Shown here in pieces: positions 15,558-62,324 of a DNA stretch of 64,000 nucleotides; positions within the stretch are counted from its first letter, which is position 1, and each line of letters starts with the position of its first letter. Origin of the DNA: Streptosporangium carneum (GTDB lineage: Bacteria > Actinomycetota > Actinomycetes > Streptosporangiales > Streptosporangiaceae); the NCBI RefSeq assembly GCF_027922005.1, contig NZ_BSEV01000002.1, positions 1 through 64,000 on the forward strand, in the 5' to 3' direction. The translations under genes and the position numbers were made by a program. The notes beneath the pieces are model-generated. The model had not been told where the DNA came from and made no database searches. It worked only from the letters and a program-made list of their open reading frames with translations.

Positions 15558-16120
15558 GAAGACGTCTGGACGACCGCGTGGTGTGGCAGGCCGCGGCGCA
15601 CCTGCTCGCCTACCCCGACGAACACTTCTGGGAACGGCTGCCGCTGGTCCGCGCGGCCGCCGGGCCGTGCTTCGAGGCGTTCCTCGGCCACCTGTCGCGG
15701 GTCGGGCGGGGCGAGCTGGCCGCGCACTACGTGGAGACCTTCGACCTGCGGCGCAGGTGCTGCCTCTACCTGACCTACTACGCCGATGGGGACACCCGGC
15801 GGCGGGGCGCGTCGCTGGCCAGGCTGAAGGTCCGTTACCGCGCGTGCGGGTGGGAGCTGTGCGGGGACGAACTGCCCGACTACCTGCCGGTCATGCTGGA
15901 GTTCGCCGCCCTGGAGCCGGAAGGGGCCGCCGTCCTGCGGGACAACCGGGCGGGACTGGAGCTGCTACGGCTCGCGCTGCGTGAGTGCGGCTCGCCGTAC
16001 GGGTCCGTGGTCGAGGCCGTGTGCGCCACGCTCCCGCCCGTCGACCGGGCGGAACGGGCGCTGGTGGCCAGGCTGGCGGGGCAGGGGCCGCCGTCGGAGT
16101 CGGTGGGGGTGTACGGATGA
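15554..16120 (+). CDS. narJ: Nitrate reductase assembly chaperone
   Basis: 188 residues, the normal length of NarJ/NarW, a private chaperone that holds apo-NarGH until molybdenum cofactor is inserted. The motifs LLAYPDEHFWE, ETFDLRRRCCLYLTYY and DYLPVMLEFAAL are typical. Its ATG overlaps the narH stop (ATGA), and its own stop overlaps narI in the same way, so the three are translationally coupled. Confidence 0.93.
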   Translation: MRRRLDDRVVWQAAAHLLAYPDEHFWERLPLVRAAAGPCFEAFLGHLSRVGRGELAAHYVETFDLRRRCCLYLTYYADGDTRRRGASLARLKVRYRACGWELCGDELPDYLPVMLEFAALEPEGAAVLRDNRAGLELLRLALRECGSPYGSVVEAVCATLPPVDRAERALVARLAGQGPPSESVGVYG

Positions 16121-23873: not shown

Positions 23874-23890
23874 GACCTGCCTCATGTGGC

Positions 23891-23927
23891 TTCGAAGGGG
23901 GGTGTCAGGGGGGTGGGTTCGAAGGGG
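23891..23927 (-). promoter_or_regulatory. Direct repeat TTCGAAGGGG upstream of a chitinase gene
   Basis: TTCGAAGGGG occurs at 23891-23900 and again at 23918-23927, just before the first gene of the three-chitinase unit. Actinomycete chitinase promoters often carry direct repeats, but this word is not one I recognise. Function is not shown. Confidence 0.3.
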
Positions 23928-23959
23928 CCACGGGGACGCCATGGGACGTCACGGGGACA

Positions 23960-23991
23960 CGGCCCGCACCCGGTGCACGGGGTGCGGGCCG
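23960..23991 (-). terminator. Hairpin after the 603-residue GH18 gene
   Basis: CGGCCCGCACCC (23960-23971) pairs perfectly with GGGTGCGGGCCG (23980-23991) across an 8-base loop, 8 bases past the gene end at 23999 on the minus strand. Confidence 0.7.
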
Positions 23992-23998
23992 CGTCCGG

Positions 23999-25810: not shown

Positions 25811-25873
25811 TTTCTCTCCACTGGGAAAAGCTGCGAAGCGAGGCTCGATGTTCGGGGGGTGTCGCTGAGGTAG

Positions 25874-25905
25874 GGCCCGCGCCCCGGGGGCAGGAGGCGC
25901 GGGCC
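25874..25905 (-). terminator. Hairpin in the chitinase intergenic region
   Basis: GGCCCGCGCC (25874-25883) pairs with GGCGCGGGCC (25896-25905) across a 12-base loop. It lies between the decayed chitinase tail and the next active gene, in the position expected for the terminator of the upstream unit. Confidence 0.6.
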
Positions 25906-25917
25906 GTACCGGCCGTG

Positions 25918-26079
25918 GTCCCGTGACGGTCCTGGTGAGCTCCAGGGCGGCCTGAGCGATGCCGCCGTTCTCCGAGGTCACACCACGGGGGTGGGGACGG
26001 TCACGGTCGGCCGCCGGTGGGCGGCCCCGCGAGGTCCCTGCGGCACGGCCCAGTAGGTGATCTGGGCCCGTGTCGCCGG
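25918..26079 (-). pseudogene. Remnant of a GH18 chitinase C-terminus
   Basis: Minus-strand translation gives ADRDRPHPRG, VTSENGGIAQAALELT and RTVTG, which align with NRDRPCPGGG, VQENCSGVAQADWEFT and KITAG at the end of the neighbouring 603-residue chitinase. Further upstream, in another frame, ATRAQITYWA aligns with ATWQQITDYA, so a frameshift separates the two parts. The stop codon is lost and the aromatic residues are mutated. It is a non-functional fragment of a duplicated chitinase gene. Confidence 0.7.
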
Positions 26080-26125
26080 ATGCGCTGATGACGCATGTCT
26101 GTCTCCCCTGAGAAGGGGCGCCGCC

Positions 26126-27970
26126 CTACGGGAGGGTCGCGAGGTGCGGCTTGACGGTCTTGGAGAAGTTCCAGTTGTTGCTGGCGTCCCAGTTGATCGA
26201 CCAGGTCATGGCGCCCCGGATCCCCGGGTACGCGTTCGGCGGCACGAAGCTGCCGCAGTTGGTCTTGGTGGCCAGGCAGGTCAGCGCCTGGTTCACCAGG
26301 GACGGGGCGACGATGCCGCCACCCGCCGCACCCGGTCCTGCGGGCAGGCCGAGGGCCACCTGGTCGGGACGCAGGCCGTTCTCCGTCTGGATGCAGGCCA
26401 GCGCGGTCATGAAGTTGACCGTGCCCTGGGAGTAGGCGGCCATCTTGTCGCAGCCGAGCATGGAGCCGGAGTTGTAGTACTGGGTGTGGACGACGGTGAG
26501 GATGTCCTTGATGTTCAGCGCGAGCTTGAAGTACTCAGCGCCCGTCGACTGCATGTCGATCGTCTGCGGAGCCATCGTGATGATCAGGCCGGCGCCCGCC
26601 TTGGCGCGCAGCGACCGCAGGGCCTGGCCCATGTAGGTGGAGTTGAGGCCGTTCTCCAGGTCGATGTCGACGCCGTCGAAGCCGTAGTTCTGCATCAGGG
26701 CGTAGACCGTGTCGGCGAACTTGGTCGCCGCGGCGGCGCTGGCGACCTGGACGCGGCCCTTCTCGCCGCCGACCGAGAGGATGACCTTCTGGCCGCGCGA
26801 GTGGAGGGTCTGCACGTCGGCCTTGAACTGGGCGTCGGTGTAGCCGCCCAGGGAGGTCGACAGGCCCGGGTCGATGCCGAAGACGACCTCGCCCGCGGTC
26901 GAGGAGGCCTCACCGAAGGAGACGGCGACCAGGTCGTACTCCCTGGGCACCGAGGCCAGCTTGAGCTCGACGGCCGGGTTGTCGAAGTTGTGCCAGTAAC
27001 CGGTGAGGAAGTGCTTGGGCAGCGGGGTGGTGGTGCAGCCGGTCGTGGTGGCGCCGGCCGGGTCGCTCTTCGGCCCCTCGCCGGCCGGGTTGTAGGCCGC
27101 GACGGTGTAGGTGTGCAGCTCGCAGTCGCCCAGACCGGAGATCGTCGTCGAGGTGCCGGTGACGGTCGCCTTCAGCGTCGTGCCCTCGTAGACCTTGTAC
27201 CCGCTGATCGGGCCGGTGACGTCGGTCCACGACAGCGCGACGCCGTTGGCGCCGCCGGTCGCGGTGAGCCCGCCCACCTTGTTGGGGAGTCCGTTGGTGC
27301 AGTTGTTCGTGGTGGCGCTGGCCGGGTCGCTCTTCGCGCCCTCACCGGCCGCGTTGTAGGCCACGACGGTGTAGGTGTGCGGCTCGCAGTCGCCCAGGCC
27401 GGAGATGACGGTCGAGGTGCCGGTGACCGTGGCCCGCAGGGTCGTGCCCTCGTACACCTTGTAGCCGGTCACGGTGCCGCTCGCGGCGCCCCACGACAGG
27501 GCGATGCCGTTCCGGCCGCCCGTCGCGGTCAGCGCGCCCGGCTTGCCCGGCACGGTCTCGCTGCTGCCGCCGCCGCAGTCGGCGCCGTTGAGCTTGCAGT
27601 TCAGCGGAAGGGAGTTGGCCCCGCCCGGCGTGCCGAGGAAGCCGAACGTCACGCTGCCGCCCGCCGGGACGCTGCCGTTCCAGCCGACGTTGCTGAAGGT
27701 GAAGTGCTGGCCGCTCTTGGTCAGTGTGGCGTCCCAGAAGGAGCCGACGTTGATCCCCGTGGGAAGGTCGAACTCCACCTTCCAGCTGCTCAGGGCCGCA
27801 CCGCTGTCGTTCTTGATCGTGTATCTGCCCTCGAAGCCCGAACCCCAGTCGCCGACCTTGGAGAAGGTGGCGGTGGCCGAGGCGGCCTGGGCGGGTGACG
27901 CGACCGCCGTGGCCGCGACGGCCAGGGCCGCCGCGGCGACGAGCGATCGAGCTATGACGCGAAATCTCAC
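26126..27970 (-). CDS. Secreted CBM2-FnIII-FnIII-GH18 chitinase
   Basis: 614 residues from GTG 27970, which has GAGG six bases upstream; an ATG five codons earlier (27985) has no ribosome-binding site. Signal peptide ends SPAQA. CBM2 is followed by two related fibronectin III domains (GYKVYEGTT in both). The GH18 domain has a complete FDGVDIDLEN active site, QYYNSGSM and MTWSINWDAS, close to the 760-residue enzyme downstream. It is probably the most upstream active chitinase of the island. Confidence 0.94.
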   Translation of the reverse strand: MRFRVIARSLVAAAALAVAATAVASPAQAASATATFSKVGDWGSGFEGRYTIKNDSGAALSSWKVEFDLPTGINVGSFWDATLTKSGQHFTFSNVGWNGSVPAGGSVTFGFLGTPGGANSLPLNCKLNGADCGGGSSETVPGKPGALTATGGRNGIALSWGAASGTVTGYKVYEGTTLRATVTGTSTVISGLGDCEPHTYTVVAYNAAGEGAKSDPASATTNNCTNGLPNKVGGLTATGGANGVALSWTDVTGPISGYKVYEGTTLKATVTGTSTTISGLGDCELHTYTVAAYNPAGEGPKSDPAGATTTGCTTTPLPKHFLTGYWHNFDNPAVELKLASVPREYDLVAVSFGEASSTAGEVVFGIDPGLSTSLGGYTDAQFKADVQTLHSRGQKVILSVGGEKGRVQVASAAAATKFADTVYALMQNYGFDGVDIDLENGLNSTYMGQALRSLRAKAGAGLIITMAPQTIDMQSTGAEYFKLALNIKDILTVVHTQYYNSGSMLGCDKMAAYSQGTVNFMTALACIQTENGLRPDQVALGLPAGPGAAGGGIVAPSLVNQALTCLATKTNCGSFVPPNAYPGIRGAMTWSINWDASNNWNFSKTVKPHLATLP

Positions 27971-27998
27971 GTTGACCTCATGCATTCGGTGGGGGGTG

Positions 27999-49846: not shown

Positions 49847-50326
49847 GTGGACAGCGTGGAGCGCGACCGCCTCGCCGACGCCATCGGCGACTTCAGACGG
49901 GCCATGATCCCCGGCTTCGTCCTTCACCTGCTGCGCGGCTTCGAAGGCGACGAGCCCTCGATGATCCAGCTCGCCACGCTCTACGTCCTCGACCGCCCGG
50001 ACCCTCCGACGCTCCGCGTGCTCGCCGAGCGCGTCGGCCGGTCGGTCTCCGCGACCAGTCGCCTGGTCGACCAGCTCGTACGGCGAGGCCTGGCCGACCG
50101 CCGCGAGGACCCCGACGACCGGCGACTGCGACGGATCGTCCTCACCCAGGACGGCACGGACTTCCTACGGAGGTTCGAGCGCGCGAGGGCGGACGCCCAG
50201 CTCCAGGTCATGGCCCATCTCACCGCCGAAGAACGCGCGCTCGTGACCCGGGCGTTCACGCTGCTCGGCGAAGCATCGAGGAGACGCACTGATGCCCGAC
50301 ACCCCACTGATCCTGAAATTCGATGA
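49847..50326 (+). CDS. MarR family transcriptional regulator
   Basis: 159 residues. The winged helix is about 45-115, with LRVLAERVGRSVSATSRLVDQLVRRGLADRRED-type sequence: a recognition helix followed by the basic wing DPDDRRLRRIVLT. GTG 49847 has AAGGAG upstream. The last 35 bases overlap the start of the downstream enzyme gene, so the two are one operon, and the palindrome at 49822 is the likely autoregulatory site. Confidence 0.92.
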   Translation: MDSVERDRLADAIGDFRRAMIPGFVLHLLRGFEGDEPSMIQLATLYVLDRPDPPTLRVLAERVGRSVSATSRLVDQLVRRGLADRREDPDDRRLRRIVLTQDGTDFLRRFERARADAQLQVMAHLTAEERALVTRAFTLLGEASRRRTDARHPTDPEIR

Positions 50327-53057
50327 CATCGGGGCGGACACGCTGCCCCTCGTCGGCGGCAAGGCCGCCAACCTCGGCGTGCTCACCTCGGCCGGACTCC
50401 CCGTGCCGCCCGGCCTGTGCGTCACCACCGAGGCCTACCGCAGGGTGACCGAGCGGGCCGGTCTCGACGACGTGCTCGACGCCCTGGCCGTCACCCCCGC
50501 CTCGGACGTCACGGCCCTGAACGAGCTGGCCCGCCGGGCCCGCGAACTCGTGCTCTCCGCCCCCGTGCCCGACGACATCGCCGACGCCGTACGGCGCAGC
50601 GCGCACGGCCCCGTCGCGGTCCGCTCCTCCGCGACCGCGGAGGACCTGCCGCACGCCAGCTTCGCCGGGCAGCAGGACACCTACCTCAACGTGGTCGGCG
50701 CCGACGCGGTGCTGGACGCGGTCAGGCGCTGCTGGGCGTCGCTGTGGACCGACAGGGCGGTCGCCTACCGGGCGGCCAACGGCATCGACCACCGGACCGT
50801 CCTGCTGGCCGTCGTGATCCAGGAGATGGTGCAGTCCGAGATCGCCGGGGTGATGTTCACCGCCAACCCCGTCACGGGGCGGCGGCACGAGGCGGTGATC
50901 GACGCCAGTCCCGGACTCGGCGAGGCCGTGGTCTCCGGGGCGGTCAACCCCGACCACTTCGTGGTGGACACCGCGACCGGGCGGATCACCGAGCGGCGGC
51001 CCGGCGACAAGCGGCTGGCCGTACGGTCACTGCCGGGAGGCGGCGTCGAGCGCGTCGAGACCTCGACCTCGGCCGAACGGTCGTGTGTCACCGATGCCCA
51101 GGTCAGGGCGCTGGCCGAGCTGGGAGGACGGGTCGAGGGGCACTACGGGGCCCCGCAGGACACCGAATGGGCCGTCGACGCCGACGGCACGCTGTGGCTG
51201 ACCCAGTCCCGCCCGATCACCACCCTCTTCCCCGTCCCCCGGCACTCCGCGCGGGACGCGGAGACCGACGGCACGCGGATCTACTTCTCCGTCAACGTGG
51301 CGCAGGGCGTCTACGCCCCGTTCACCCCGATGGGCGTCTCGGCCTTCCGGCTGCTGTCGTCGGCGGCGGCCACGCTGTTCGGAGCCCCCGTCGCCGACAG
51401 GGCGAGCGGGGCGCCCCAGATCGCCGAGGCGGCGGGACGGCTGTTCATCGACGTCACCGGGCTGGTGCGCAGCCGGGTCGGCCGGATGATCATGCCCCGT
51501 CTGCTGGACGTGATGGAGGCCAGGTCGGCTGTGGTGCTGCGCGGCCTGTTCGACGACCCCCGCTTCGCCGTGACCCAGCGCTCCGTGCGCCCCGCCCTGC
51601 GACGGTTCCTCAGGATCGCGACCCGGTTCCGGATTCCCTCGCACACTGTGCGGGCCGTGCTCAGCCCGGCGTCGGCGCACAGGCGGGCGGGCCTGCTGGA
51701 GTCACGGCTGCGCTCGCGGCTCGCGCCCCTGGCGGAGGCCACGCCCCTGGAGCGGCTCGACCGGGTCGAGCGGGTGCTGGGCGGCCAGGCCATCACGCTG
51801 GTCCCCACCGTCGTGCCCGGCCCCGCGGCGGGGTTCGCCATGCTGGGCCTGGCCGCGCGTCTCCTGGGCGACCACGCGAAGCAGGGAGAGCTGTCGACCG
51901 TCCTGCGCGGCCTGCCGCACAACGTCACCACCGAGATGGACCTGGCCCTGTGGCGTCTGGCGGAACGGATCCGCGCGGACAGGAGCGCCGCGTCCCTGCT
52001 GCTCGACACCCCGGCGGCGGAGCTCGCCCGGCGTTTCCACGACGGATCGCTGCCGGAGGCGGTGGACCGGGGACTGCGGGACTTCCTGTCGGTCTACGGC
52101 TCCCGCGCGGTCGCCGAGATCGACCTCGGGGTTCCGCGCTGGTCGGAGGATCCCACGCACATCATCGGCGTGCTGGCCAACTACCTGCGTCTTGAGGACC
52201 CCTCGCTGGCACCCGACGCCGTGTTCGCCAGGGGAGCCGCGGAGGCCACGCGCATGATCAGGACCTTGGGCTCCCGGGTGGGCGGCCCGCGCGGCCTGGT
52301 CGTCCGTTTCGCCCTCGGCAGGGCACGCGCCCTGGCCGGTCTCCGCGAACTGCCCAAGTTCCTCATGGTGACCGTCCTGGCCGCGATGCGCGCCGAGCTG
52401 AGGACCGTGGGCGCCCACCTGGTCGGCCTCGGACTTCTCGACTCCCCCGACGACGTCTTCCTCGTGACGACGCGCGAGGTCAGGGCCGCCCTGACCGCGC
52501 CCTCCCGGCCCGCCGATCCGGCCGCCCCGGCGGGCCGGGAGACGCTCAGGGCGCTCGTCTCCGAGCGGCGCGAGGACGCCGTCCGCGAGCGGGGCCGCAG
52601 GCACCTGCCCCGGATCGTGCTGTCCGACGGCACGGAACCCGAGGCCGTCGCCACGGCCGCGCCGGTCGACGGCGCGATGACCGGCACCCCCGCCTCCGCC
52701 GGCGTCGTGACAGGGGTCGCCAGGGTGGTGCTCGACCCGGTCGGCGCCCACCTCGAGCCCGGCGAGATCCTGGTCTGCCCCTCGACCGACCCGGGCTGGA
52801 CCCCGCTGTTCCTCACGGCGGGCGGTCTGGTCATGGAGATGGGCGGGGCCAACTCGCACGGCGCCGTGGTCGCCCGCGAGTACGGCATCCCCGCGGTGGT
52901 CGGCGTCGCCCGCGCGACGGAGCACGTCGTCACCGGCCAGGTGATCACGGTCGACGGCACCTCGGGCGTGGTGGTCGCCGCCTCGGAGCCCGGCTCCGTC
53001 GCCTCCGGTCCGGCCCCCGGGGCCGCCGGCGGGGGGTCCTCCGCTATCCGACGGTGA
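50292..53057 (+). CDS. PEP/pyruvate-binding phosphotransferase, rifampicin-phosphotransferase-like
   Basis: 921 residues. The N-terminal ATP-grasp domain (about 10-320) has VGGKAANLGVL and VRSSATAEDLPHASFAGQQ. A central helical domain (about 330-810) follows. The C-terminal swivelling domain has GGANSHGAVVAREYGIP, with phospho-accepting His856. This three-domain order is shared by PEP synthase-like enzymes and rifampicin phosphotransferase, which transfers the beta-phosphate of ATP to rifampicin. The central domain decides the substrate and cannot be judged by eye. The upstream MarR gene supports a drug-response role. No rifamycin-associated element was seen. Confidence 0.82.
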   Translation: MPDTPLILKFDDIGADTLPLVGGKAANLGVLTSAGLPVPPGLCVTTEAYRRVTERAGLDDVLDALAVTPASDVTALNELARRARELVLSAPVPDDIADAVRRSAHGPVAVRSSATAEDLPHASFAGQQDTYLNVVGADAVLDAVRRCWASLWTDRAVAYRAANGIDHRTVLLAVVIQEMVQSEIAGVMFTANPVTGRRHEAVIDASPGLGEAVVSGAVNPDHFVVDTATGRITERRPGDKRLAVRSLPGGGVERVETSTSAERSCVTDAQVRALAELGGRVEGHYGAPQDTEWAVDADGTLWLTQSRPITTLFPVPRHSARDAETDGTRIYFSVNVAQGVYAPFTPMGVSAFRLLSSAAATLFGAPVADRASGAPQIAEAAGRLFIDVTGLVRSRVGRMIMPRLLDVMEARSAVVLRGLFDDPRFAVTQRSVRPALRRFLRIATRFRIPSHTVRAVLSPASAHRRAGLLESRLRSRLAPLAEATPLERLDRVERVLGGQAITLVPTVVPGPAAGFAMLGLAARLLGDHAKQGELSTVLRGLPHNVTTEMDLALWRLAERIRADRSAASLLLDTPAAELARRFHDGSLPEAVDRGLRDFLSVYGSRAVAEIDLGVPRWSEDPTHIIGVLANYLRLEDPSLAPDAVFARGAAEATRMIRTLGSRVGGPRGLVVRFALGRARALAGLRELPKFLMVTVLAAMRAELRTVGAHLVGLGLLDSPDDVFLVTTREVRAALTAPSRPADPAAPAGRETLRALVSERREDAVRERGRRHLPRIVLSDGTEPEAVATAAPVDGAMTGTPASAGVVTGVARVVLDPVGAHLEPGEILVCPSTDPGWTPLFLTAGGLVMEMGGANSHGAVVAREYGIPAVVGVARATEHVVTGQVITVDGTSGVVVAASEPGSVASGPAPGAAGGGSSAIRR

Positions 53058-54321
53058 CCGTCCTGGCCGCGGCGCGCGCGACAGGCGGCACGGCGAGCCC
53101 GGCCAGCGCGAAGACCACGCCGAACAGCACCCACCCCGCCTCCCCCCAGCCGATCACGGCGGCGGTGAGCAGGGCGGGGGCGAGGATGTTCGCGAGCTGG
53201 TAGCCCATCCCGTAGAACCCCTGGTACTGCCCGAGCGCGTACGCGGGGGCCAGCTCGTAGGACAGGCCCCACGACCCCGCGGCCTGCAGCAGCTCCCCCA
53301 CGACGTGGGCGAGCGCGCCCGCCGCCAGCACCGCGACCGCGACCCACTCGGACCGGCCCGCCGAGGCGGCGAACAGCAGGCAGGAGACGAGGAGGACCAG
53401 CCCTGAGCGGCGCTGCGCGCGGGCCGCGCCCGCGACGTTCTCGGTTCCCCTGCTGAAACGGACCTGCAGGAGGGTGACGGCGACGGTGTTGAGCATCAGC
53501 ATCACCCCCACCGTCGCCGTGGGAGCGGCGGTGCGCTCGACGACCCAGATCGGGATCGAGACGGTCAGCAGGCCGCCGTGCACGGACAGCACCCCGTTCA
53601 GCAGGGCGAGCAGCGCGTAGGGGCGATCGCGCAGCACCGCCCGCACGGGTCCGTCGCCGGTCCGCGAGGGCGTCCTGGCGGCGGGAACCCTGAGGGTCAG
53701 CACCGCCCCGGCCAGGTAGCAGGCCGAGCAGCCGAAGATCATCGTCAGGTACACGGGCCGGGTGTCGTAGTGGAGGGCGACCGCCGCGCCCAGCCCTCCG
53801 ACCGACCAGCCCACGTTCGTGACGGCCCGCAGGTAGGCCCTGGCCTTGACCCGTCTGTCCGGGGGGACGGCCACGCCGATCAGGGCGCTGCGCGCGGTCT
53901 GCTCGGCGGCCTCGGTGAAGGTCGCCAGACCCGCCACGAGCACGAAGCCCGCGAACCCGTCCACGACGACGTAGCCGCAGGTGAGGACGGCGCCGGCCGC
54001 GGAGAACGCGACAGTGACGCCGCGCGGGCCGAACAGGTCGGAAAGACGCCCCGCGGGCAGGCCGCCGAGAAGCCCGGCGGCGGAGGCGATCGTCAGGCCG
54101 AGCCCCACCTCGACCGCCGACATGCCGACCGAGGAGGTGAAGTAGATCACGCTGACGGTGACGAACAGGCCCCGCCCGACCGTTCTGCAGGCGGTCGCCC
54201 AGGTGAGCGCCGTCACCACGCCCGGCTCGGGGAGCAGCGCCGCCAGGGGCGGCCGAACGACGCGTCTCCTCTCCGCCGCCCGTACCGTCTCGCCCACGCG
54301 GCGTTCCCCGTCAACCGTCAC
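53044..54321 (-). CDS. Major facilitator superfamily transporter
   Basis: 425 residues from GTG 54321; the frame opens further upstream with ATG 54360. About twelve membrane segments, with the loop motif GGLPAGRLSDLFGPRG between helices 2 and 3 and long helices with few charges. It is probably a drug/proton antiporter. It is the last gene in the same direction as the radical SAM cluster, but 297 bases lie between it and the kinase gene, so co-transcription is uncertain. Its end overlaps the RPH-like gene by 14 bases. Confidence 0.8.
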   Translation of the reverse strand: MTVDGERRVGETVRAAERRRVVRPPLAALLPEPGVVTALTWATACRTVGRGLFVTVSVIYFTSSVGMSAVEVGLGLTIASAAGLLGGLPAGRLSDLFGPRGVTVAFSAAGAVLTCGYVVVDGFAGFVLVAGLATFTEAAEQTARSALIGVAVPPDRRVKARAYLRAVTNVGWSVGGLGAAVALHYDTRPVYLTMIFGCSACYLAGAVLTLRVPAARTPSRTGDGPVRAVLRDRPYALLALLNGVLSVHGGLLTVSIPIWVVERTAAPTATVGVMLMLNTVAVTLLQVRFSRGTENVAGAARAQRRSGLVLLVSCLLFAASAGRSEWVAVAVLAAGALAHVVGELLQAAGSWGLSYELAPAYALGQYQGFYGMGYQLANILAPALLTAAVIGWGEAGWVLFGVVFALAGLAVPPVARAAARTVTVG

Positions 54322-54413
54322 ACCGACCCCCGCACCACGCCTCCCCGCACCCCCGACCATCTCGGCTCACCCGCGCGGCGTTCCCCGTCAACCGTCACAC
54401 CGACCCCCGCACC
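54297..54413. repeat. 77-bp tandem duplication at the start of the MFS gene
   Basis: Forty bases starting CGCGGCGTTCCCC at 54297-54336 recur exactly at 54374-54413. The period (77) is not a multiple of three, so the upstream copy of the start region is out of frame. More irregular repeats of GTGCCCGC and TCCCGGCCTCAC fill 54508-54618 up to the kinase stop. Confidence 0.8.
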
Positions 54414-54618
54414 CCCGACCGTCCCGGTTCGCCCGCGCGACGCCTTCCCCGGCGCGCCGGGCCGCCCGCACGGAACGTCTCTCATCGCACCGGCCGCACC
54501 GGATCATCCGCCCCGTGCCCGCGGCGCTCTCCCGGCCTCACGGATCACCCACCCCGTGCCCGCCCCGGGCCCATCCCGTGCCCGCCCCGTGCCCGCGGCC
54601 TCCTCCCGGCCTCACGGG

Positions 54619-55551
54619 TCATCCGCACAGCACCTTCTCGCACCACTCCAGCCCCGCCGTTCCCCTGTCGACGAGTGCCTGGTCCGCGAACTCGTCGGTG
54701 CCGAGCAGGCCGAGGAGCGCGAAGGTGTCGGCCGCGTAGGCGGCCACCGTGGCCTCTCCCGGCACGTCCGCCCCCGGGGAGCCGTAGCCGTCGAGGAGCG
54801 GCGCTCCCAGCAGGCCGTAGGCCCTCATCCTGCCGAGTTCGGCCGCGGGGTCGCCCATGGTGCAGTTGGACAGGTCGATCACCGCGACGAGGTCGTCCCC
54901 GCGGAAGCAGAGGTTCTCCGGACGCAGGTCCATGTGGAGCAGGCGGAGGGGCACCCCGGCCGAACGCTCCTTGATCACCGCCGTGGCCGCCTCGACCAGC
55001 GCCCGATGGCCCCTGACCGGCACCCGTTCCGCCAGCGCGCCCACCCGGACCGCGATCCGCTCGATCATCGCCTCCGGAGCGCACTCGGCCCCCAGACGGG
55101 CCCGCAGGGAGGCGGGCACCGGTATCCCGTGGATCAGTCTGAGGACCTCGCCGAGACGGTGGAGTCGCGCGTCGCCGAGTTCGGTCACCTCGTCGTTGGC
55201 GACGAAGTCCAGGAGCATCCACGAGTGCGCGTCCTCGCCGTGGGCGCGCCGCCATCCCCTGAGGGACGCCGTGGGAACACCAGCGTCCGCGAGGATCCCG
55301 TGAACCAGGGCCTCCCGTTCGAGCACCGCGCCGAAGTCGACCGTGCCGTCGTACGCGGAAGGGGCGATCTCCCTCAGCGGCACACGGAGCACGAAACGCC
55401 TTTCGCCGTCCACCTCGACGAGCAGGGCGGCGTAGTCGGCGCCTCGCCGCCACGGCGAAACCCGGCTGCCCGGCGGCAGCCGGTCAGCCAGTTGCCCGGC
55501 CATGCTCCTGGCCAGCAGTTCCTCGTCCGGGACTTCCACACTCTGCAACAA
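54619..55551 (-). CDS. APH family phosphotransferase (aminoglycoside/choline kinase-like)
   Basis: About 310 residues. The kinase motifs are LLHMDLRPENLCF (catalytic loop with Asp and Asn) and VAVIDLSN (metal-binding Asp). The N-lobe has FVLRVPL with the ATP lysine replaced or displaced, and EREALVHGIL. It could phosphorylate a cluster metabolite or confer self-resistance. The start is uncertain: TTG 55551 follows GGGAAG, GTG 55536 is possible, and the open frame to ATG 55659 would overlap the previous gene. Confidence 0.8.
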   Translation of the reverse strand: MLQSVEVPDEELLARSMAGQLADRLPPGSRVSPWRRGADYAALLVEVDGERRFVLRVPLREIAPSAYDGTVDFGAVLEREALVHGILADAGVPTASLRGWRRAHGEDAHSWMLLDFVANDEVTELGDARLHRLGEVLRLIHGIPVPASLRARLGAECAPEAMIERIAVRVGALAERVPVRGHRALVEAATAVIKERSAGVPLRLLHMDLRPENLCFRGDDLVAVIDLSNCTMGDPAAELGRMRAYGLLGAPLLDGYGSPGADVPGEATVAAYAADTFALLGLLGTDEFADQALVDRGTAGLEWCEKVLCG

Positions 55552-55618
55552 GGCGACTTCCCATCTCCAACGCGGCTCAGGCCGTGCCCTTCGGCGGGGC
55601 GCCGTGTCGAAGGCTCCG

Positions 55619-56689
55619 TCACCGTGCCGGGAGCAGCGCCCCCTGGAGCGGGCGAACACGGCAGCCTCGCCGGACCTTCGCGTCGACGGCGGCGCCTCCG
55701 TAGTCGATCAGCGTGCACCTCGGGCCCTTCAGCGCCCATTCGATCATCGCATAGTAAGTGGCCTCGAAATAAGCGAACCCCTCCCTTCCCTCGAATCCCG
55801 CGAGTTTCGGCACGAGCCAGTCCGCCTCCTGGATCGCGAGAACATGGCCGACGACGCCGGAATCACCGCGTACCGCCGTAAGGAAAACCAGCCTCCCCTC
55901 ATACTCCTTCTGCAAAGAGCGAAACTGCCCCAATATCCGCTCCTCGGTAGAAACAAGGCCATATCTTCGGTAGTGATTGATCTGCCTTCTCACGACGTCG
56001 GCGGAGACCGGCACGACCGGTGAGGTCTCCACCCGCAGCCCCGCCTCGGCGAAGGCCCGGCGTTCACGCAGGACCTCACGTCTGCGTTTCGCGGTGAACC
56101 CCGAGAGATATTCGCCGAACGTCGACGTCCCGCCAAGGTCGAGATACGCCGAGGCTCCCATGGGGAACAGGTGGGAGGGGCCGGAGATCCCCTCGACGAG
56201 CCAGTCGGGCGCGGGGTCGGGGAGGTGCGGGAGGAACAGCGAGCTCGCCCCGGAGTCGACGGCCACCTGGCCGATCGCCCGTAGCAGGGCACCGACGGCG
56301 GCTCCCGCCGTGCGCCGCCCGACTCCCGCCGCCACGTGCAGACCGGACACGTATGAGCTGGGGGCGACGACCACGACGGACGGCTCCCCGAGCAGGTCCC
56401 CCGCCCCCTCGAACGGCGGATCCGGGACCGCGGCCCCGACGTGGTTCGACAACCGGTACTTCGTGTGGTGGTCGGTGTCGAACCGCAGGTGGAACACGGC
56501 GACCGCGACAGGCCGCCCCTCGGCGTAGGCGATGGCGTACTCACAGGGCCGGTCGAACCCCGCGCCGTGACAGACGAGCCAGCGGACCGAGAGCTGAGGC
56601 GGCCCTCCCTCGACGGCCGCCGCCCAGTCGAGCGCCGCCACGGGGTCGTCGAGGGTGACGCGCCTGGTGGTGATGCCGGTTGTTTTCAT
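55619..56689 (-). CDS. FemAB/GNAT-like acyl- or aminoacyl-transferase
   Basis: 356 residues. The second half resembles the peptidoglycan biosynthesis/recognition family PF04339 and the FemAB-like GNAT group: YLSGFTAKRRREVLRERR, FAYFEATYYAMIEWAL and LIDYGGAAVDAKVRRGC. Such proteins transfer amino acids from aminoacyl-tRNA or acyl groups from CoA. ATG 56689 follows GGGGAA. In a biosynthetic operon it could add an amino acid or acyl unit. Exact donor and acceptor are unknown. Confidence 0.75.
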   Translation of the reverse strand: MKTTGITTRRVTLDDPVAALDWAAAVEGGPPQLSVRWLVCHGAGFDRPCEYAIAYAEGRPVAVAVFHLRFDTDHHTKYRLSNHVGAAVPDPPFEGAGDLLGEPSVVVVAPSSYVSGLHVAAGVGRRTAGAAVGALLRAIGQVAVDSGASSLFLPHLPDPAPDWLVEGISGPSHLFPMGASAYLDLGGTSTFGEYLSGFTAKRRREVLRERRAFAEAGLRVETSPVVPVSADVVRRQINHYRRYGLVSTEERILGQFRSLQKEYEGRLVFLTAVRGDSGVVGHVLAIQEADWLVPKLAGFEGREGFAYFEATYYAMIEWALKGPRCTLIDYGGAAVDAKVRRGCRVRPLQGALLPAR

Positions 56690-56709
56690 GTCCGGTTCCC
56701 CATGTGTCC

Positions 56710-57324
56710 CTAACGGGTCGTCACTTCGGTGATGTTCGGCGTGGTGGTACGGCCGAGCGGATAGTCCGTGCGAAGCGTCAGGCCTGCCACGATGTCACGG
56801 ACCTCGTGCTCGTCCAGGCTGACGCTCACCCTCTCCCGCGGCCGGGCGGCCCGCCTGCTGAGGAACAGGTCGGCCAGCTCACCGAGGGCCGAGGTCGCGT
56901 GGGAGCCCGACAGGTCGACGGCGACCAGCCGGAAGACGTCGACGATCTCCAGTTCGATCGAGTCCTGGCTGGGGTCGTGCCGCTGGAGGGCGAGCCACTC
57001 CTGGGCGAGCTGGAAGTCGATGCCTCCGGTCGCCTCGAGGATGTCGTCCAGCGCGATCTCCGCGAGCTCCGAGACGCCCAGCTCTCCGGCCACGACCAGT
57101 TCGGCCGCGCCGCCCGCGACGGCGACGGCCACCTGCGCGGCGATGCTGCGCGTCTTCTCCTCGGCCGCGGTCCAGTCGGCGTCCGCGCTGACCTCGGTGA
57201 AGGTGAACCCCTCCGGCGACCACACGCTCGCGCTCACCGAGACGACCCTCTGCGCCCATCCGACGAGAAGGTGGCCCGCCTCGTGGATCGCCAGCGCCCG
57301 CGCGTTCTCGTGTTCGCGTTTCAC
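56710..57324 (-). CDS. Stand-alone M41-like (FtsH-type) metallopeptidase domain
   Basis: 204 residues from GTG 57324, which overlaps the preceding stop (GTGA). The zinc site AIHEAGHLLVGW gives His14, Glu15 and His18; ATGGIDFQLAQEW supplies the third ligand Asp103, and VAGGAAELVVAG matches the FtsH helix between them. The AAA+ domain and membrane helices of FtsH are absent. A free peptidase domain next to tailoring enzymes could process a peptide or act on a protein partner. Confidence 0.78.
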   Translation of the reverse strand: MKREHENARALAIHEAGHLLVGWAQRVVSVSASVWSPEGFTFTEVSADADWTAAEEKTRSIAAQVAVAVAGGAAELVVAGELGVSELAEIALDDILEATGGIDFQLAQEWLALQRHDPSQDSIELEIVDVFRLVAVDLSGSHATSALGELADLFLSRRAARPRERVSVSLDEHEVRDIVAGLTLRTDYPLGRTTTPNITEVTTR

Positions 57325-58421
57325 GCCGTCACCCCCAGTCTGGCGAGTCCCTGTTCCCATTCCCTCGCGAGCCACGATTCGTACTCGGGCCCGGCGGGTT
57401 TGTCGACCACGACGCAGACCGGGCAGATCTGCCGGTCCCTGGCCGAGAAGGCCGCGTGCATCTGGGAGAGGTTGTTGCCGATGAGCAGATCGCCCCGCTC
57501 GCCGACGACCGTGCTCTCGTAGCGTTCCCGCACTCCGGGCCAGGAGAGGCCGAGCGTCTCGAAGGTCGCGTGGCAGACGAGCCTGGCCCCGGGGCCCTCA
57601 CAGGCGCCGCAGGGGCAGCCCTCGACCAGGCCCCAGATTCCGGGAATCGAGGCGTACTGCTCCGGCCACAGCTCGCTCTCGGCGCGGGGGCCGCTGGGAA
57701 GCACGTGGTGGGCCGGGTTGGCGGAGCCGAGCAGGGAGCCCAGCGTCAGGTAGCGCGAGCGGTGCACGTCGCTCAACCGCAGGGAGCGCGCGATGTTGTC
57801 GCCGAGGAAGCGCTCCACGTCCGCGCCGCGTTCCGGCGGCGCGCCGAACCTCAACCGGTACGCCTCGACCAGCAGGGCGATGAGGTTGTAGTAGTACGTC
57901 TCTCCGGGAAACGCCCCGGGGCGGGTGATCAGGAAGCCCTGGTACATCTTGTGGGACGGGCGCTTGAAGAAGACCGTGTTCGAGAACATCCGGTCGTCGG
58001 TGACGCCGTGGCCGTCGTTCTCCCTGCGGGGGGTGAGGAAGCTCGAATGCGCCCCGTCCTGGTGGGGCAGCAGGAACCTGGACCTCCCGCGGGGCGCCGT
58101 CGGCGTGCCGTAGCTCTCCTCGTCGACCTCGACGTAGGCGTCGCCGGGCAGCAGGTGCTCCTGTCTCATGACCGTGGTGACGGCCAGCAGCGCGGCCCTC
58201 GCCCTGGAGATCAGCTCCGCGGCGGCCCCGGGCAGGCCCTCACGGGCCAGCCGGATCGTGACCGACCCGCCACCTGACAGGTGCTCGGCGGCGCTGTCCA
58301 CCCAGGGCGCGGCCCCGGCCTCGGCGAACCAGGACGGGGGGACGTCGACGGTCAGGACGTCGATCCTGACGGGATCCGACGTGTCGTGCGGGCTTCGCGT
58401 GGCATGTTCGGAACGGGTCAT
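57321..58421 (-). CDS. Putative Fe(II)/2-oxoglutarate-dependent oxygenase with cysteine motifs
   Basis: 366 residues. FLLPHQDGAHSSF provides His120 and Asp122, and GDLLIGNNLSQMHAAFSARDR provides His322 and Arg330; this is the HxD...H...R layout of TauD/SyrP-like oxygenases. Unusually, C269-x-C271-xx-C274 with C283 and a CPVC pair at 333-336 suggest an added metal site. No close family was recognised. ATG 58421 has AAGGGA upstream and starts 3 bases after the ureohydrolase stop. Confidence 0.6.
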   Translation of the reverse strand: MTRSEHATRSPHDTSDPVRIDVLTVDVPPSWFAEAGAAPWVDSAAEHLSGGGSVTIRLAREGLPGAAAELISRARAALLAVTTVMRQEHLLPGDAYVEVDEESYGTPTAPRGRSRFLLPHQDGAHSSFLTPRRENDGHGVTDDRMFSNTVFFKRPSHKMYQGFLITRPGAFPGETYYYNLIALLVEAYRLRFGAPPERGADVERFLGDNIARSLRLSDVHRSRYLTLGSLLGSANPAHHVLPSGPRAESELWPEQYASIPGIWGLVEGCPCGACEGPGARLVCHATFETLGLSWPGVRERYESTVVGERGDLLIGNNLSQMHAAFSARDRQICPVCVVVDKPAGPEYESWLAREWEQGLARLGVTA

Positions 58422-58424
58422 GGA

Positions 58425-59474
58425 TCATCCCTTGTGAAGTCGGAAGACGGCCTCGAACAGCAGCCTGGCCGCGATCTGCGGGGTACGGCCCGTCGGATCG
58501 AGGCGGGGCGCCACCTCGGCGATGTCGAAGGCCCCGACGGGCAGGGTGTGCAGAAGCTCCCAGACGTCCAGGAACGCCGAGCCGGTCAGCCCGCCGAGGG
58601 TGACGTTGCCCGTTCCCGGAGCGACGGAGCAGTCGAGGATGTCGATGTCGGTCGAGATGTAGACGACGTCGCAGTTCTCCCCCAGCCGTTCGACGAGAGC
58701 GGCGACCGGTCCCGTGTCGTCGCGCAGCTCGGGGGCCGCGATCACGGAGTAGCCGCAGTCGGCCAGGTGGCGCAGCTGGTTGCGGCGTGTCACGTCGCCG
58801 ACCCCGACGAAGGCGATGTTCTCCGGTCTCATCCCCGGCAGCTCGGAGATCCTGCGGGAGTTGGACCCGTGGTAGATCGGCCCGTGCAGACGGCTCGAGT
58901 CGCCGAAGTCGAAGTGGTGGTCGAGGTTGACGAACCCGATCCGCTCCGGCGGGACGCTCTCCCTCGTGGCCAGGTAGAAGCCGGTGAAGGTGCCGATCGT
59001 GCACGAGTGGTCTCCGACGAGGAAGACGCCGCGACGCCCGCCCTCCAGCAGCGTCCGCGTTCCCGAGGCCACGGAGGCGACCGTCGCCATCGGGTCGCTG
59101 GGGAAGACGGACAGGTCTCCGGCGTCCACGACCGCCGGATGCCCGTACTCGAACTCCTTGCCCGTCCGCATGTCCGTCATCGGCTCGACCGCGCGGGTGG
59201 ACAGGGAGCTTGAGTAGACGAGGCTCGCCACGCGCATCGCCCTCGGCCCCTCGGCCGCGCCGGGGCGGGAGCTGGTGGTCCCGTCGAAGGGGACCCCGGC
59301 GGCCACCCACGTGGAGGACTCGGACGGCAGGCGGTCCCAGTCGGTCACCAGGTCGGCCCCGAACAGCGTGGGCACTCCGGCCCAGCCGGGCGCGGCGGCG
59401 ACGCGGGCGGGCGCCGACTCGGCGGCGGCGACGAGGACGGCGGGGTCGAAGGCCGACTCTCTCACTTCAGGCAT
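58425..59474 (-). CDS. Ureohydrolase (arginase/agmatinase family)
   Basis: 349 residues. Mn-binding motifs are all present: LVGDHSCTIG, FVNLDHHFDFG (DxHxD), YISTDIDILD (DxD) and AFDIAEVAP with the conserved Glu. The cysteine after DILD replaces the usual proline. The enzyme should hydrolyse a guanidino or amidino compound to urea and an amine. It sits between a radical SAM and an oxygenase gene rather than among arginine catabolic genes, so a pathway intermediate is the likely substrate. It overlaps the radical SAM gene by 13 bases. Confidence 0.9.
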   Translation of the reverse strand: MPEVRESAFDPAVLVAAAESAPARVAAAPGWAGVPTLFGADLVTDWDRLPSESSTWVAAGVPFDGTTSSRPGAAEGPRAMRVASLVYSSSLSTRAVEPMTDMRTGKEFEYGHPAVVDAGDLSVFPSDPMATVASVASGTRTLLEGGRRGVFLVGDHSCTIGTFTGFYLATRESVPPERIGFVNLDHHFDFGDSSRLHGPIYHGSNSRRISELPGMRPENIAFVGVGDVTRRNQLRHLADCGYSVIAAPELRDDTGPVAALVERLGENCDVVYISTDIDILDCSVAPGTGNVTLGGLTGSAFLDVWELLHTLPVGAFDIAEVAPRLDPTGRTPQIAARLLFEAVFRLHKG

Positions 59475-60793
59475 GCGTTCTCCGCTTCGCGTCTTCCGGC
59501 CAGGAGGTCGGTCATGACCTCCACCTTCTCCATGAACAGTTCCCAGCTCCTGCCGGGCGTCAGGTGATAGGGCTCGAACACCACGGGCGCGTCCTCCCGC
59601 CAGTGCGCGAAGTCCCAGTCGTGGATGCGCGGGCGCAGCGCGGGGAAGTCGGGCACCAGCGGGTAGGGGACGAAGTTGTAGAGGTTGGCGAGCCAGACGA
59701 CGTCGGCGCACTCCCGCAGCCAGCGGACCGTTTCCGCGTGGCCGTTCTCCGTCTCCCTGGCGAGGCCGCCCATCACGTTGAGCACCACGCGCATGCCTCG
59801 CCGCTCGATCGCCAGCAAACTGTCGCGGTAGTGGTCCAGGCCCCGCGACAGCTTTCCCGACTCGCGGAGCATCTCGGTGTCGGCGGACTCGAACCCGAGC
59901 TCGACCGCCACGACGCCCAGCTCGGACATCGCGTCCAGCACCCACGGACGCACGGCCAGGACGTGTGTCTGCACGATGAAGCGATAACCGGGCCTGTCGC
60001 GGAAGACGGCCAGCAGGTTCCGCACGGCCTCGCGCGACTGGCCGAACGTCTTGTCCCCGATGTAGACAAGCCGCGTGCCGGGGTAGCGCTCGGCGAACTG
60101 GTCGACCTCCCGCCCCAGCGCGTTCTCCTCGACGAGGGTGAGTTGCTGGCTCCAGGCGTCTCCGCAGAAGCGGCACTTGTAGAGGCAGCCGTGGCTGGCG
60201 TTGAGCCTCAGCAGGGGGACCCGTCCCGCGTACCCTCCGAGGTGGCGGTACTGGGGCGCCCAGCTGATGCGCTCCTCGGCGATCCCCGAGCGGCTGCGCA
60301 CGGACAGCAGCCCGTCGGCCGAGGTCTCGGGGCGGAGGACCGCGCGCAACTGCTCGATCCCGACCTGCCCCCTGACCACCCTGCTGACGTCGTCGGGAGT
60401 GGCGAGAGGCGCCATGTTCCCCCCGAGCACGGTGATCCGCCCCATCCGCTTCAGGGCGCGGCTGACGCGCAGGGCCAGGTCGAGGTTCTGCGCCAGCGGG
60501 CTGAGCAGGATCGCGTCTCCGGGAGCGCTCACCTCGACGAGCGAGCGCAGGCAGTCGTCCGAGGAGGCGGCGGAGCTCAGGTCGACGAAGGAGGATTCGA
60601 CGTCGAGTTCGTCGAGCAGCGCGGTGATGTGGGCGACCCACAGGGGCATTTCCCAGAGACTCGCCTCCGGAATGAAGAACTCGGGAAAGAGGAGTGCGAA
60701 CTCCCGCTCGTACAGCTCGTAATAGCGGTTCAGGTCGCGTTGCGGCTCACTGGTCGAGGGAAACGGTAACTGGACGATATGCGCTGCGGGCAA
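59462..60793 (-). CDS. Radical SAM enzyme with cobalamin-binding-like N-terminal domain
   Basis: 443 residues from TTG 60793, with GGAGAAG just upstream. The N-terminal 150 residues have the Rossmann layout and LGGNMAPLATP motif of B12-binding domains, but no DxHxxG was seen, so cobalamin may bind base-off without a histidine ligand or not at all. The radical SAM cluster ligands are Cys203, Cys207 and Cys210 (GCLYKCRFCG). Later GFESADTEMLRESGK is a typical family motif. It may methylate or rearrange an unactivated carbon. It is the first large gene of the cluster. Confidence 0.9.
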   Translation of the reverse strand: MPAAHIVQLPFPSTSEPQRDLNRYYELYEREFALLFPEFFIPEASLWEMPLWVAHITALLDELDVESSFVDLSSAASSDDCLRSLVEVSAPGDAILLSPLAQNLDLALRVSRALKRMGRITVLGGNMAPLATPDDVSRVVRGQVGIEQLRAVLRPETSADGLLSVRSRSGIAEERISWAPQYRHLGGYAGRVPLLRLNASHGCLYKCRFCGDAWSQQLTLVEENALGREVDQFAERYPGTRLVYIGDKTFGQSREAVRNLLAVFRDRPGYRFIVQTHVLAVRPWVLDAMSELGVVAVELGFESADTEMLRESGKLSRGLDHYRDSLLAIERRGMRVVLNVMGGLARETENGHAETVRWLRECADVVWLANLYNFVPYPLVPDFPALRPRIHDWDFAHWREDAPVVFEPYHLTPGRSWELFMEKVEVMTDLLAGRREAENACLK

Positions 60794-60807
60794 TGACTTC
60801 TCCGTTA

Positions 60808-60921
60808 CTACGATTCAGTGCATGCGAATTCCGAGGAGTTGAAAGGCGATCCCCGCGCATAGGGGCGCATGGCCCCGGACACCCCTCTGAGGATTTCGGC
60901 GCCGCATCCGCCGACATCCAT
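60808..60921 (-). CDS. Candidate 37-residue peptide upstream of the radical SAM gene
   Basis: ATG 60921 opens 37 codons closed by TAG TAA, 14 bases before the radical SAM start. The product begins MDVGGCGAEIL and ends NSSEFACTES, with two cysteines, four arginines and a Ser-rich tail. There is no Shine-Dalgarno, but the -10 of a good promoter ends 9 bases before the ATG, so translation could be leaderless. An internal ATG would give the last 20 residues. It could be a precursor peptide or chance. Confidence 0.3.
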   Translation of the reverse strand: MDVGGCGAEILRGVSGAMRPYARGSPFNSSEFACTES

Positions 60922-60958
60922 AACAAACATGGATAATATTCTTTTCAACGAGAGTCAA
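60920..60958 (-). promoter_or_regulatory. Promoter of the radical SAM cluster
   Basis: Two overlapping solutions on the minus strand: TTGACT (60953-60958)-17-TATCCA (60930-60935), and TTGAAA (60943-60948)-17-TGTTAT (60920-60925). The AT-rich patch is exceptional in this G+C-rich window. Confidence 0.6.
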
Positions 60959-61355
60959 TAACCGTTCAGCGACATCGCACTACTCTCTGTTGCGACAAGA
61001 CGCCCCCACCTGCGCGGAAACCACCGGATAAAAACTGGTGCGAGCGTCCGGCGGGTGCGACGGGCACCTCGTCCGCCCCGTGCCTCACCCGGCCGCGGCC
61101 GCCCTTTTCCGCTTTTGCGGCCCGCCCTTTTCCCGGGCCGCCGGATCTCCCGGGTCACTGAACTTCCCGGGCCGCCGACCGCGTCGGCCCCGGAGGGCGT
61201 CCCGGCACGACGCCTCGGACGCGACCGGGCGGCACGACGCTCCGACGGAGGGCGGGCACGACGGCGGTTCGGACCCTGGACTGTAACAATCGGCTTGACG
61301 GGTCGGCGATGCCGACGGAGCGCCTCCTGTCAGGCCGTCTCAGAAAGGGCAGCCC
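60959..61355. other. Intergenic region between the cluster and the PfkB gene
   Basis: 397 bases. It holds an AT-richer part near 60960-61040 and then G+C-rich sequence with arginine-rich open frames that look like composition effects. A small hairpin GTCGGC-GAT-GCCGAC lies at 61302-61316, upstream of the kinase start. No gene is supported. Confidence 0.4.
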
Positions 61356-62324
61356 ATGTCCCGCAGCCAGGTCGCCGTGCTCGGCGAATGCGTCGCCGAC
61401 GCCTTCGCCACCGGGAAGGCGTCGCAGGGCGAGCTCACCCTGCGCGTCCTGCCCGGTGGCAGTCCCGCCAACACCGCCGTGGCCCTGTCACGGCTCGGCA
61501 CGCCCACCCGTTTCCTCGGACGGCTCTCCCGTGACACCTTCGGCGCGCTGTTCCGTTCCCACCTCGAGGCCTCGGGGGTCGATCTGACCGGCTGCGTGAG
61601 CGCGGCCGAGCCCAGCACGCTCGCGGTGGCCACGCTGGACGAGTCGGGGCGGGCGGACTACGCCTTCTACGCGGAGGGCTCGGCCGACTGGCAGTGGAGC
61701 GCGCAGGAGCTGAGCGCGGAGCAGATCGGCGACGTCGCCTGCCTGCACACCGGTTCCATCGCGCTGGTCCACGCCCCCGGGGCCGAGCGCATCGAGGAGT
61801 CGCTGGCACGGGTCGCCGCCCACGCCACGGTCTCGATCGACCCCAATGTGCGCGCGGGCTTCGTCGACCTGGCCGTCTACCGGGAGCGGATGCTCATGTG
61901 GTGCGCGCTCACCGACATCGTCAAGCTGAGCGACGACGACATGGAGACGATCCACCCCGGCGAGCCCGTGGAACGGGTCTGCGACGCCTGGCACGCCGCG
62001 GGCGCGCGGCTGATCGTGGTGACGCGCGGCCCCGAGGGCGCGCTCGTCTCCCTGGACGGCGAGCGCGCCACGGTGCCGGCCCCCGTCGTGAAGGTGGTGG
62101 ACACCGTCGGGGCGGGCGACTCCTTCACCGCCGGGCTGCTGCACCACCTGCACGCGGGCGACCTGCTCGGCGGACGGCTCGACGCCCTCGACCTCGACCG
62201 GGCCGCGAAGGCGGCCGCCTTCGCGGCCCGCGTCGCCGCGCTGACCTGCTCGGTACCGGGAGCCGACCCGCCGTGGGCCCGGGACCTCGCCGACGGCGGC
62301 TCACCGGGGGTGCGCCTGCCGTAG
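61356..62324 (+). CDS. PfkB family carbohydrate kinase (fructokinase-like)
   Basis: 322 residues. The two PfkB signatures are visible: GGSPANTAVALSRLG near residue 34, and DTVGAGDSFTAGLLHHL near 250 with the catalytic base Asp in GAGD. The substrate is likely fructose or a related sugar or nucleoside. ATG 61356 has AAAGGG upstream. It converges with the antiporter gene and is divergent from the radical SAM cluster. Confidence 0.92.
   Translation: MSRSQVAVLGECVADAFATGKASQGELTLRVLPGGSPANTAVALSRLGTPTRFLGRLSRDTFGALFRSHLEASGVDLTGCVSAAEPSTLAVATLDESGRADYAFYAEGSADWQWSAQELSAEQIGDVACLHTGSIALVHAPGAERIEESLARVAAHATVSIDPNVRAGFVDLAVYRERMLMWCALTDIVKLSDDDMETIHPGEPVERVCDAWHAAGARLIVVTRGPEGALVSLDGERATVPAPVVKVVDTVGAGDSFTAGLLHHLHAGDLLGGRLDALDLDRAAKAAAFAARVAALTCSVPGADPPWARDLADGGSPGVRLP

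Follow-up and report, generated by a model that had tools for sequence, protein, structure and literature searches.

A rare gene cassette in Streptosporangium carneum joins a radical SAM protein, a ureohydrolase and an oxygenase-fold protein that has no Pfam family

Introduction

In clavulanate biosynthesis, proclavaminate amidinohydrolase acts together with clavaminate synthase, and VioC, CmnC and OrfP are the arginine hydroxylases of the viomycin, capreomycin and streptothricin pathways. Here we describe a seven-gene cassette of Streptosporangium carneum that brings relatives of these enzymes together with other protein types. The cassette runs on the minus strand from position 60793 to position 53044 of contig NZ_BSEV01000002.1 (assembly GCF_027922005.1), of which we analysed the first 64,000 nucleotides, hereafter the window. 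It encodes, in order, a radical S-adenosylmethionine (SAM) protein (RSAM), a ureohydrolase (UREO), an oxygenase-fold protein (OXY), a small protein named after its HEAGH motif, a FemAB-like transferase, an APH-type kinase (APH) and an exporter of the major facilitator superfamily (MFS).

The clavulanate pair is the closest precedent, as there an Fe(II)/2-oxoglutarate oxygenase and an arginase-family ureohydrolase work in one pathway on guanidino intermediates, and both enzymes of the pair are found among the relatives of the cassette proteins: proclavaminate amidinohydrolase among those of UREO and clavaminate synthase among those of OXY. The cassette differs in adding a radical SAM protein, a FemAB-like protein and APH, and in that OXY lies outside the TauD Pfam family. 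Domains of carboxyethylarginine synthase and beta-lactam synthetase were absent from the seven cassette genes, the rest of the genome not being searched for them.

Three other described systems bear on the cassette. VlmA, DhpH-C, PacB and Orf11 are, in the excerpts of PMC12945691 available to us, aminoacyl-tRNA transferases of the FemABX/GNAT fold. They resemble the cassette FemAB-like protein in belonging to a Fem-like family, in carrying a late conserved lysine and in being clustered with small-molecule genes; the cassette protein differs in belonging to PF04339, and its use of tRNA is putative. The LanB-like PEARLs treated in the same excerpts and in those of PMC9303977 resemble proteins of sister clusters, which encode pairs of Lant_dehydr_N proteins with no matched elimination domain; unlike PEARL systems, the seven window genes include no such protein, and no scaffold peptide was found in the sister clusters. 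The peptide arginases (pfam12640), as far as the excerpts of PMC12703449 describe them, are like UREO ureohydrolases in a biosynthetic setting, but UREO falls in PF00491, and the search for a precursor gene beside it found none. Small clusters that make specialised metabolites are familiar; for this set of genes and for the oxygenase family, no description was found in the open-access literature, among the matches listed.

Results and discussion

The cassette is a co-inherited unit with a conserved heart

The cassette is one co-inherited unit. All seven genes recur in unchanged order in Sinosporangium siamense, with 60-79% identity, and since this is another genus, the arrangement is not a chance one; the three genes flanking the cassette in the window had no match in the 18-kb Sinosporangium stretch. 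Six of the seven are collinear in Umezawaea, and Labrenzia carries five (RSAM, UREO, APH, OXY and HEAGH). Thus, relatives show the conserved co-occurrence of at least four genes that the earlier note had named as support for its proposal of a compact cluster, and not the independent scatter that it had named as the contrary outcome. The set of seven that it proposed does recur as a unit, but its members are not all equally conserved, the heart being RSAM-UREO-OXY together with APH.

The spacing of the genes, confirmed from their coordinates, is tight: RSAM and UREO overlap by 4 bases, UREO and OXY are 3 bases apart, OXY and HEAGH overlap by 4 bases, and 20 bases separate HEAGH from the FemAB-like gene. 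From this spacing we infer co-transcription. The kinase and MFS genes follow after gaps of 70 and 258 bases respectively, the latter on the longest MFS reading (ATG at 54360). Likewise, the motifs that had been claimed for the radical SAM, arginase-family, oxygenase, HEAGH and APH proteins were all re-read directly in the proteins.

The cassette is rare. RSAM was found in one of 16 genomes of the window's genus (E 1e-30) and in one of 394 genomes of a class sample (E 1e-20), OXY in three of 297 genomes of the order (E 1e-5), and the OXY profile in one of 396 genomes of a phylum sample (E 1e-5); the order, class and phylum counts include the window's own genome. In a contig collection of, by its description, 84,980 species, two peptide patterns gave 201 pattern matches that led to 16 loci, a lower bound. 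At least 16 OXY loci therefore exist, in Sinosporangium, Umezawaea, Labrenzia, Acrocarpospora (two), Actinacidiphila (two), Streptomyces (five), Catenulispora (two) and Micromonospora (two). In our numbering of loci (L), L011 and L007 are one Sinosporangium locus, L016 and L008 one locus of Acrocarpospora macrocephala, and each is counted once. Genes in the relatives come from a GC-based caller, and in several alignments the relatives' rows are mostly tblastn match ranges rather than whole genes.

The RSAM-UREO-OXY block is present at 13 of the 16 loci, and these 13 span five actinobacterial families and one alphaproteobacterium (Labrenzia). The loci without RSAM-UREO belong to the two Acrocarpospora and to Actinacidiphila bryophytorum, and none of these three genomes has an RSAM homologue anywhere at E 1e-10. 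Over 14 members, RSAM, UREO and OXY vary together in pairwise identity (Spearman 0.87, 0.89 and 0.89), which may in part reflect shared strain descent.

The oxygenase and the ureohydrolase

OXY (57321..58421, minus strand; 366 aa) has no Pfam family. Searches of Pfam, NCBIfam and the PDB by sequence or profile gave nothing useful, and PADLOC likewise gave no match. TauD (PF02668) matched neither the window protein nor, at E 5, any of the 17 aligned members, and the OXY profile matched the five TauD proteins of its own genome with a probability of only about 1%. The fold is settled only by the predicted structure, as the sequence libraries were silent: the model contains a double-stranded beta-helix, and on this prediction its fold is that of the Fe(II)/2-oxoglutarate oxygenases. 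The comparison, made with VIA-align over 1000 preselected chains so that families outside that set may also fit, returned rows that include clavaminate synthase and the arginine hydroxylases CmnC, VioC and OrfP, these three at 11-14% identity in the listed rows. The iron triad, H120-x-D122 and H322, is invariant in 17/17 members, as is R330, which directly precedes strand 331-339 of the predicted structure and is a candidate for the 2-oxoglutarate-binding arginine that follows the distal histidine. Besides its low identity to the arginine hydroxylases and its lack of a TauD match, OXY is set apart from them by four invariant cysteines (C269, C271, C274 and C283). A second OXY-like copy occurs in the Acrocarpospora macrocephala genome that also holds L008 (L009 9244-10206); in it HxD is replaced (HGSS) and the distal histidine is lost. 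It lies a few kb from genes that by eye resemble those of nonribosomal peptide synthetases, and is possibly decayed.

UREO (58425..59465, minus strand; 346 aa) is a Mn-type ureohydrolase by its metal-site alignment and a member of the Arginase family PF00491 (186.7 bits, cut-off 22). It carries the motifs GDHS, DHHFD and DID, and H153, D182, H184, D186, D273 and D275, which we take to be the metal ligands, are invariant in 14/14 members. The nearest solved structures are 3-guanidinopropionase, agmatinase and proclavaminate amidinohydrolase and, with the profile, guanidinobutyrase. Its scores fall below the NCBIfam equivalog cut-offs for agmatinase (99.2 against 174.3 bits), arginase (65 against 227.6) and formimidoylglutamase (96.8 against 229.15); indeed none of the seven cassette proteins reaches any equivalog cut-off in NCBIfam.

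The radical SAM protein and cobalamin

RSAM (59462..60793, minus strand; 443 aa) opens with a TTG codon at 60793, as does the Sinosporangium reading frame. It belongs to the Radical_SAM superfamily PF04055 (47.5 bits, cut-off 29.5), and its CxxxCxxC motif, at residue 203, is kept in all 14 members of the alignment. Read by eye, the N-terminal part that precedes the radical SAM core is B12-binding-like. Furthermore, a gene for a PduO-type cob(I)alamin adenosyltransferase directly follows APH in Umezawaea, Streptomyces cellostaticus, Actinacidiphila acididurans and Micromonospora okii (L012 13741-14313; L018 16597-17169; L021 16627-17202; L024 16614-17189), and a PduO fragment does so in Streptomyces naganishii (L017 16598-16723). 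PduO thus occurs directly after APH in clusters of two types, and all five of these genomes have another full PduO copy elsewhere. Nine of the ten other genomes examined have a single PduO, and Sinosporangium has two, neither within the cluster locus; this count leaves out the two Acrocarpospora genomes, and two of the cluster PduO proteins were checked individually. The extra PduO gene, together with the B12-binding-like N-terminal part, suggests that RSAM is a cobalamin-using radical SAM enzyme.

Several observations weigh against the use of cobalamin. The motif DxHxxG is missing from RSAM in 14/14 members, no B12 family of Pfam was matched by the protein, no PduO is encoded in the window, and none was found at 11 of the 16 loci. 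B12-binding members of the cobalamin-dependent radical SAM group that lack DxHxxG do exist. The same observations favour a cobalamin-independent enzyme of the AprD4 type, which would remove water or oxygen from a hydroxylated substrate by radical chemistry; the other steps proposed below would stand, and PduO would be incidental. Consistent with this alternative, AprD4, of similar length, is the nearest solved relative over the radical SAM core: it was the only solved chain matched by the single RSAM sequence at E 0.01, and with the RSAM profile its chain 6fd2 was the best of six (E 2.2e-10). However, the match is confined to the core, and RSAM scores 34.9 of 500 bits against the AprD4 diol-dehydratase equivalog of NCBIfam, far under the cut-off. 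An AprD4-type enzyme would also leave unaccounted for the recurrence of PduO behind APH in different cluster types, each time additional to another genomic copy. We regard it as a possibility to be taken seriously rather than as the probable case, and retain cobalamin-dependent chemistry below.

The kinase and the exchangeable ligase modules

An APH homologue occurs at 15 of the 16 loci. The exception is Micromonospora mirobrigensis, which has a bare RSAM-UREO-OXY triad; an APH-like frame seen by eye about 2 kb from this triad (L022 13210-14589, on the other strand) matches no cassette kinase and is uncounted. In the window, APH (54619..55548, minus strand) is about 309 aa long from a TTG start at 55548, with longer starts possible as far as 55659. 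It belongs to PF01636 (58.3 bits, cut-off 23.2) and carries HMDLRPEN, with H205, D207, N212 and D225 invariant in 10/10 aligned proteins.

The FemAB-like transferase (55619..56689, minus strand; 356 aa) belongs to FemAB_like PF04339 (51.2 bits, cut-off 27). It has an AKxxRG motif whose K338, invariant in 8/8, is the candidate counterpart of Lys305 of FemX as given in the excerpted PMC12945691. A FemAB-like gene is present at six loci (L011, L012, L014, L016, L019 and L020), while eight others (L015, L017, L018, L021 and L023-L026) carry instead genes for two LanB-like proteins and a PHP-domain protein. The FemAB-like transferase called in the earlier note is borne out by its family, but elsewhere two LanB-like genes take its place. 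The two modules exclude each other: within the 21-kb loci, both are present at none and neither at L013 and L022. In the LanB-like pair of L017, which was scanned, only Lant_dehydr_N was matched and no elimination domain. In the RSAM tree Catenulispora nests among Streptomyces (supports 83/86, below the starred level), a placement that the OXY and UREO trees do not resolve, yet the Catenulispora loci carry FemAB-like and MFS genes resembling those of the window and not the LanB module. Modules therefore appear to have been exchanged between clusters. The Acrocarpospora clusters hold, near OXY-APH, two FemAB/GNAT-like genes (L008 4377-5441 and 6691-7785), one MFS-like gene and one that by eye resembles a HAD-type phosphatase gene.

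The MFS exporter (53044..54360, minus strand; up to 438 aa) scores 87.7 bits against MFS_1 PF07690 (cut-off 33.4) and is matched by homologues in the clusters of Sinosporangium and Catenulispora. In two clusters that lack an MFS homologue, large membrane proteins encoded upstream look ABC-exporter-like by eye (L012 3809-7243; L013 2879-5074).

The HEAGH protein (56710..57324, minus strand; 204 aa) is a small M41-like protein; it had been taken for an M41-like peptidase, an assignment that our data do not sustain. It scores 17.6 bits against Peptidase_M41 PF01434 (cut-off 29.9) and falls outside that family; homologues occur only in the window, Sinosporangium, Umezawaea and Labrenzia clusters (4 of 17 members; E 1e-3). 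HExxH is present in three of these four, the first zinc histidine being an arginine in Labrenzia. In that homologue (L013 10963-11619) REAAH stands for HEAGH, and D103 and the WLALQR region are still conserved. In the alignment of the four, this substitution perhaps points to a non-catalytic role.

A proposed pathway and its alternatives

In our view it is somewhat more likely than not that the seven genes arrived by horizontal transfer and form a complete cluster for the biosynthesis of a small molecule derived from an amino acid, with arginine or a guanidino acid as its source; from the enzyme families encoded, we infer a guanidino amino acid as the origin of the product. In such a pathway OXY would hydroxylate arginine or a similar amino acid with an omega-guanidino group, and the guanidine would act as a mask that UREO later takes off as urea, by the precedent of proclavaminate amidinohydrolase and clavaminate synthase. 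RSAM would make a carbon-centred change, most likely with cobalamin, namely a C-methylation or a rearrangement. The FemAB-like enzyme would add an amino acid, probably from aminoacyl-tRNA. APH would phosphorylate a hydroxyl for activation or self-protection, perhaps the one introduced by OXY, as OXY and APH are the most constant pair, and the MFS protein would export the product. A kinase that is almost always present hints that the product is bioactive and requires masking or activation.

More tentatively, the clusters may together represent a class of modular, template-free antimetabolites not described before. The constant OXY-APH pair would make a hydroxylated, phosphorylated amino-acid core; the optional RSAM-UREO pair, with its own cobalamin supply in some strains, would alter a core derived from arginine by C-methylation or rearrangement, with loss of urea; and capping with amino acids would fall to either of two unrelated kinds of aminoacyl-tRNA ligase, one FemAB-like protein or two LanB-like proteins that work on a small molecule with no scaffold peptide. 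Loci without RSAM-UREO probably apply the same OXY-APH-ligase logic to another amino acid. The Fem-like and LanB-like protein types both include users of aminoacyl-tRNA (excerpts of PMC12945691), so that the product would, by analogy, carry an aminoacyl amide. If this is correct, the clusters make up a rare group of compact pathways whose oxygenase family is missed by Pfam, NCBIfam and PADLOC, and the exclusive swap of one FemAB-like for two LanB-like proteins offers a direct test of small-molecule aminoacylation by LanB-like proteins without a carrier peptide. At about 8 to 12 kb, they are small enough for easy expression in laboratory hosts.

The metabolite might be a known one, with a cluster described in other papers or databases, but this is unlikely. 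Several hosts do belong to antibiotic-producing genera. The literature comparison covers a collection of 5.39 million open-access papers, other licences and MIBiG not having been searched, and within it no named pathway with this gene set appears among the matches listed, in agreement with the earlier note. The absence of any protein above an NCBIfam equivalog cut-off points the same way.

Less probable again is a catabolic or resistance island, in which oxygenase, ureohydrolase, kinase and pump would take up or detoxify a guanidino compound. The kinase and the pump could confer resistance, and three of the genes also occur on a plasmid: among 72,556 plasmid records RSAM matched only the conjugative plasmid pMspAR02c of Mesorhizobium sp. 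AR02, where RSAM-UREO-APH (L043 11992-16015) are followed by an IS6 transposase and lie among insertion sequence (IS) elements. OXY had no match in these records. Because its gene order is that of Labrenzia, we read the plasmid set as a truncated Labrenzia-type cluster. Against an island stand the radical SAM protein and the FemAB-like or two LanB-like proteins, which resemble building enzymes, the variation of the pumps between clusters, and the rarity of OXY in the order. A reading as an anti-phage defence system was dropped: with PADLOC models, six of the seven cassette proteins gave no match, and RSAM had a weak hit (22.2 bits) to a single candidate model.

A ribosomally synthesized and post-translationally modified peptide (RiPP) or a pearlin-like pathway on a peptide scaffold would have UREO act on peptidyl-arginine and the HEAGH protein release the product as a protease. 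Radical SAM, arginase-like and peptidase-like genes do stand together here, and the LanB-like proteins of the sister clusters lack a matched elimination domain. However, open reading frames of 20-130 codons, compared between the window and three loci and between L017 and L025 and four loci each, and kept when present at two or more loci, were conserved only within or overlapping called genes. A 40-codon frame (60930-60808, minus strand) ends just before RSAM, and nothing resembling it lies upstream of the Sinosporangium cassette; on these two results the RiPP reading was dropped. With no LanB-like gene among the seven, no conserved short frame outside called genes in the sister clusters L017 and L025, only PF00491 matched by UREO where peptide arginases are pfam12640 (PMC12703449, in excerpt), and HEAGH confined to 4 of 17 members and without its zinc ligand in Labrenzia, a peptide-based pathway is very improbable.

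Boundaries of the cassette and neighbouring genes

The cassette lies between a gene resembling those for phosphoenolpyruvate (PEP) synthase and rifamycin phosphotransferase (50292..53057, plus strand), identified by family scans with scores below curated NCBIfam cut-offs, and a PfkB family sugar kinase gene (61356..62324, plus strand; Pfam). Both are flanks outside the cassette and are conserved in the congeners examined. PfkB had a strong match in 11 other genomes, and stretches from eight of them were compared. In 8/8 the flank homologues adjoin with 117 to 4770 bases between them (the L036 figure relies on a partial match at the end of a contig), and no protein of the cassette was matched there at E 1e-3. 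The edges of the cassette are therefore at about 53050 and 61350. As the gap between the flanks varies and in some congeners holds other genes, the cassette was gained or lost in one piece, and its locus is a variable one and not one clean empty site. Between the two edges, direct and inverted matches of 13 bases were sought and none was found. The intergenic region upstream of RSAM (60794..61355), at the cassette edge, has no coding sequence conserved with Sinosporangium, and there the two upstream regions align only at the ribosome-binding site and gene start.

Elsewhere in the window, positions 10263-16120 hold ordinary nar-like genes, for a nitrate-reductase-like molybdopterin oxidoreductase and a nitrate reductase delta subunit domain. 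Positions 20545-27985 encode polysaccharide-binding or -degrading proteins with CBM_4_9/fn3, CBM_2/fn3 and chitinase-like CBM_2/fn3/GH18 architectures.

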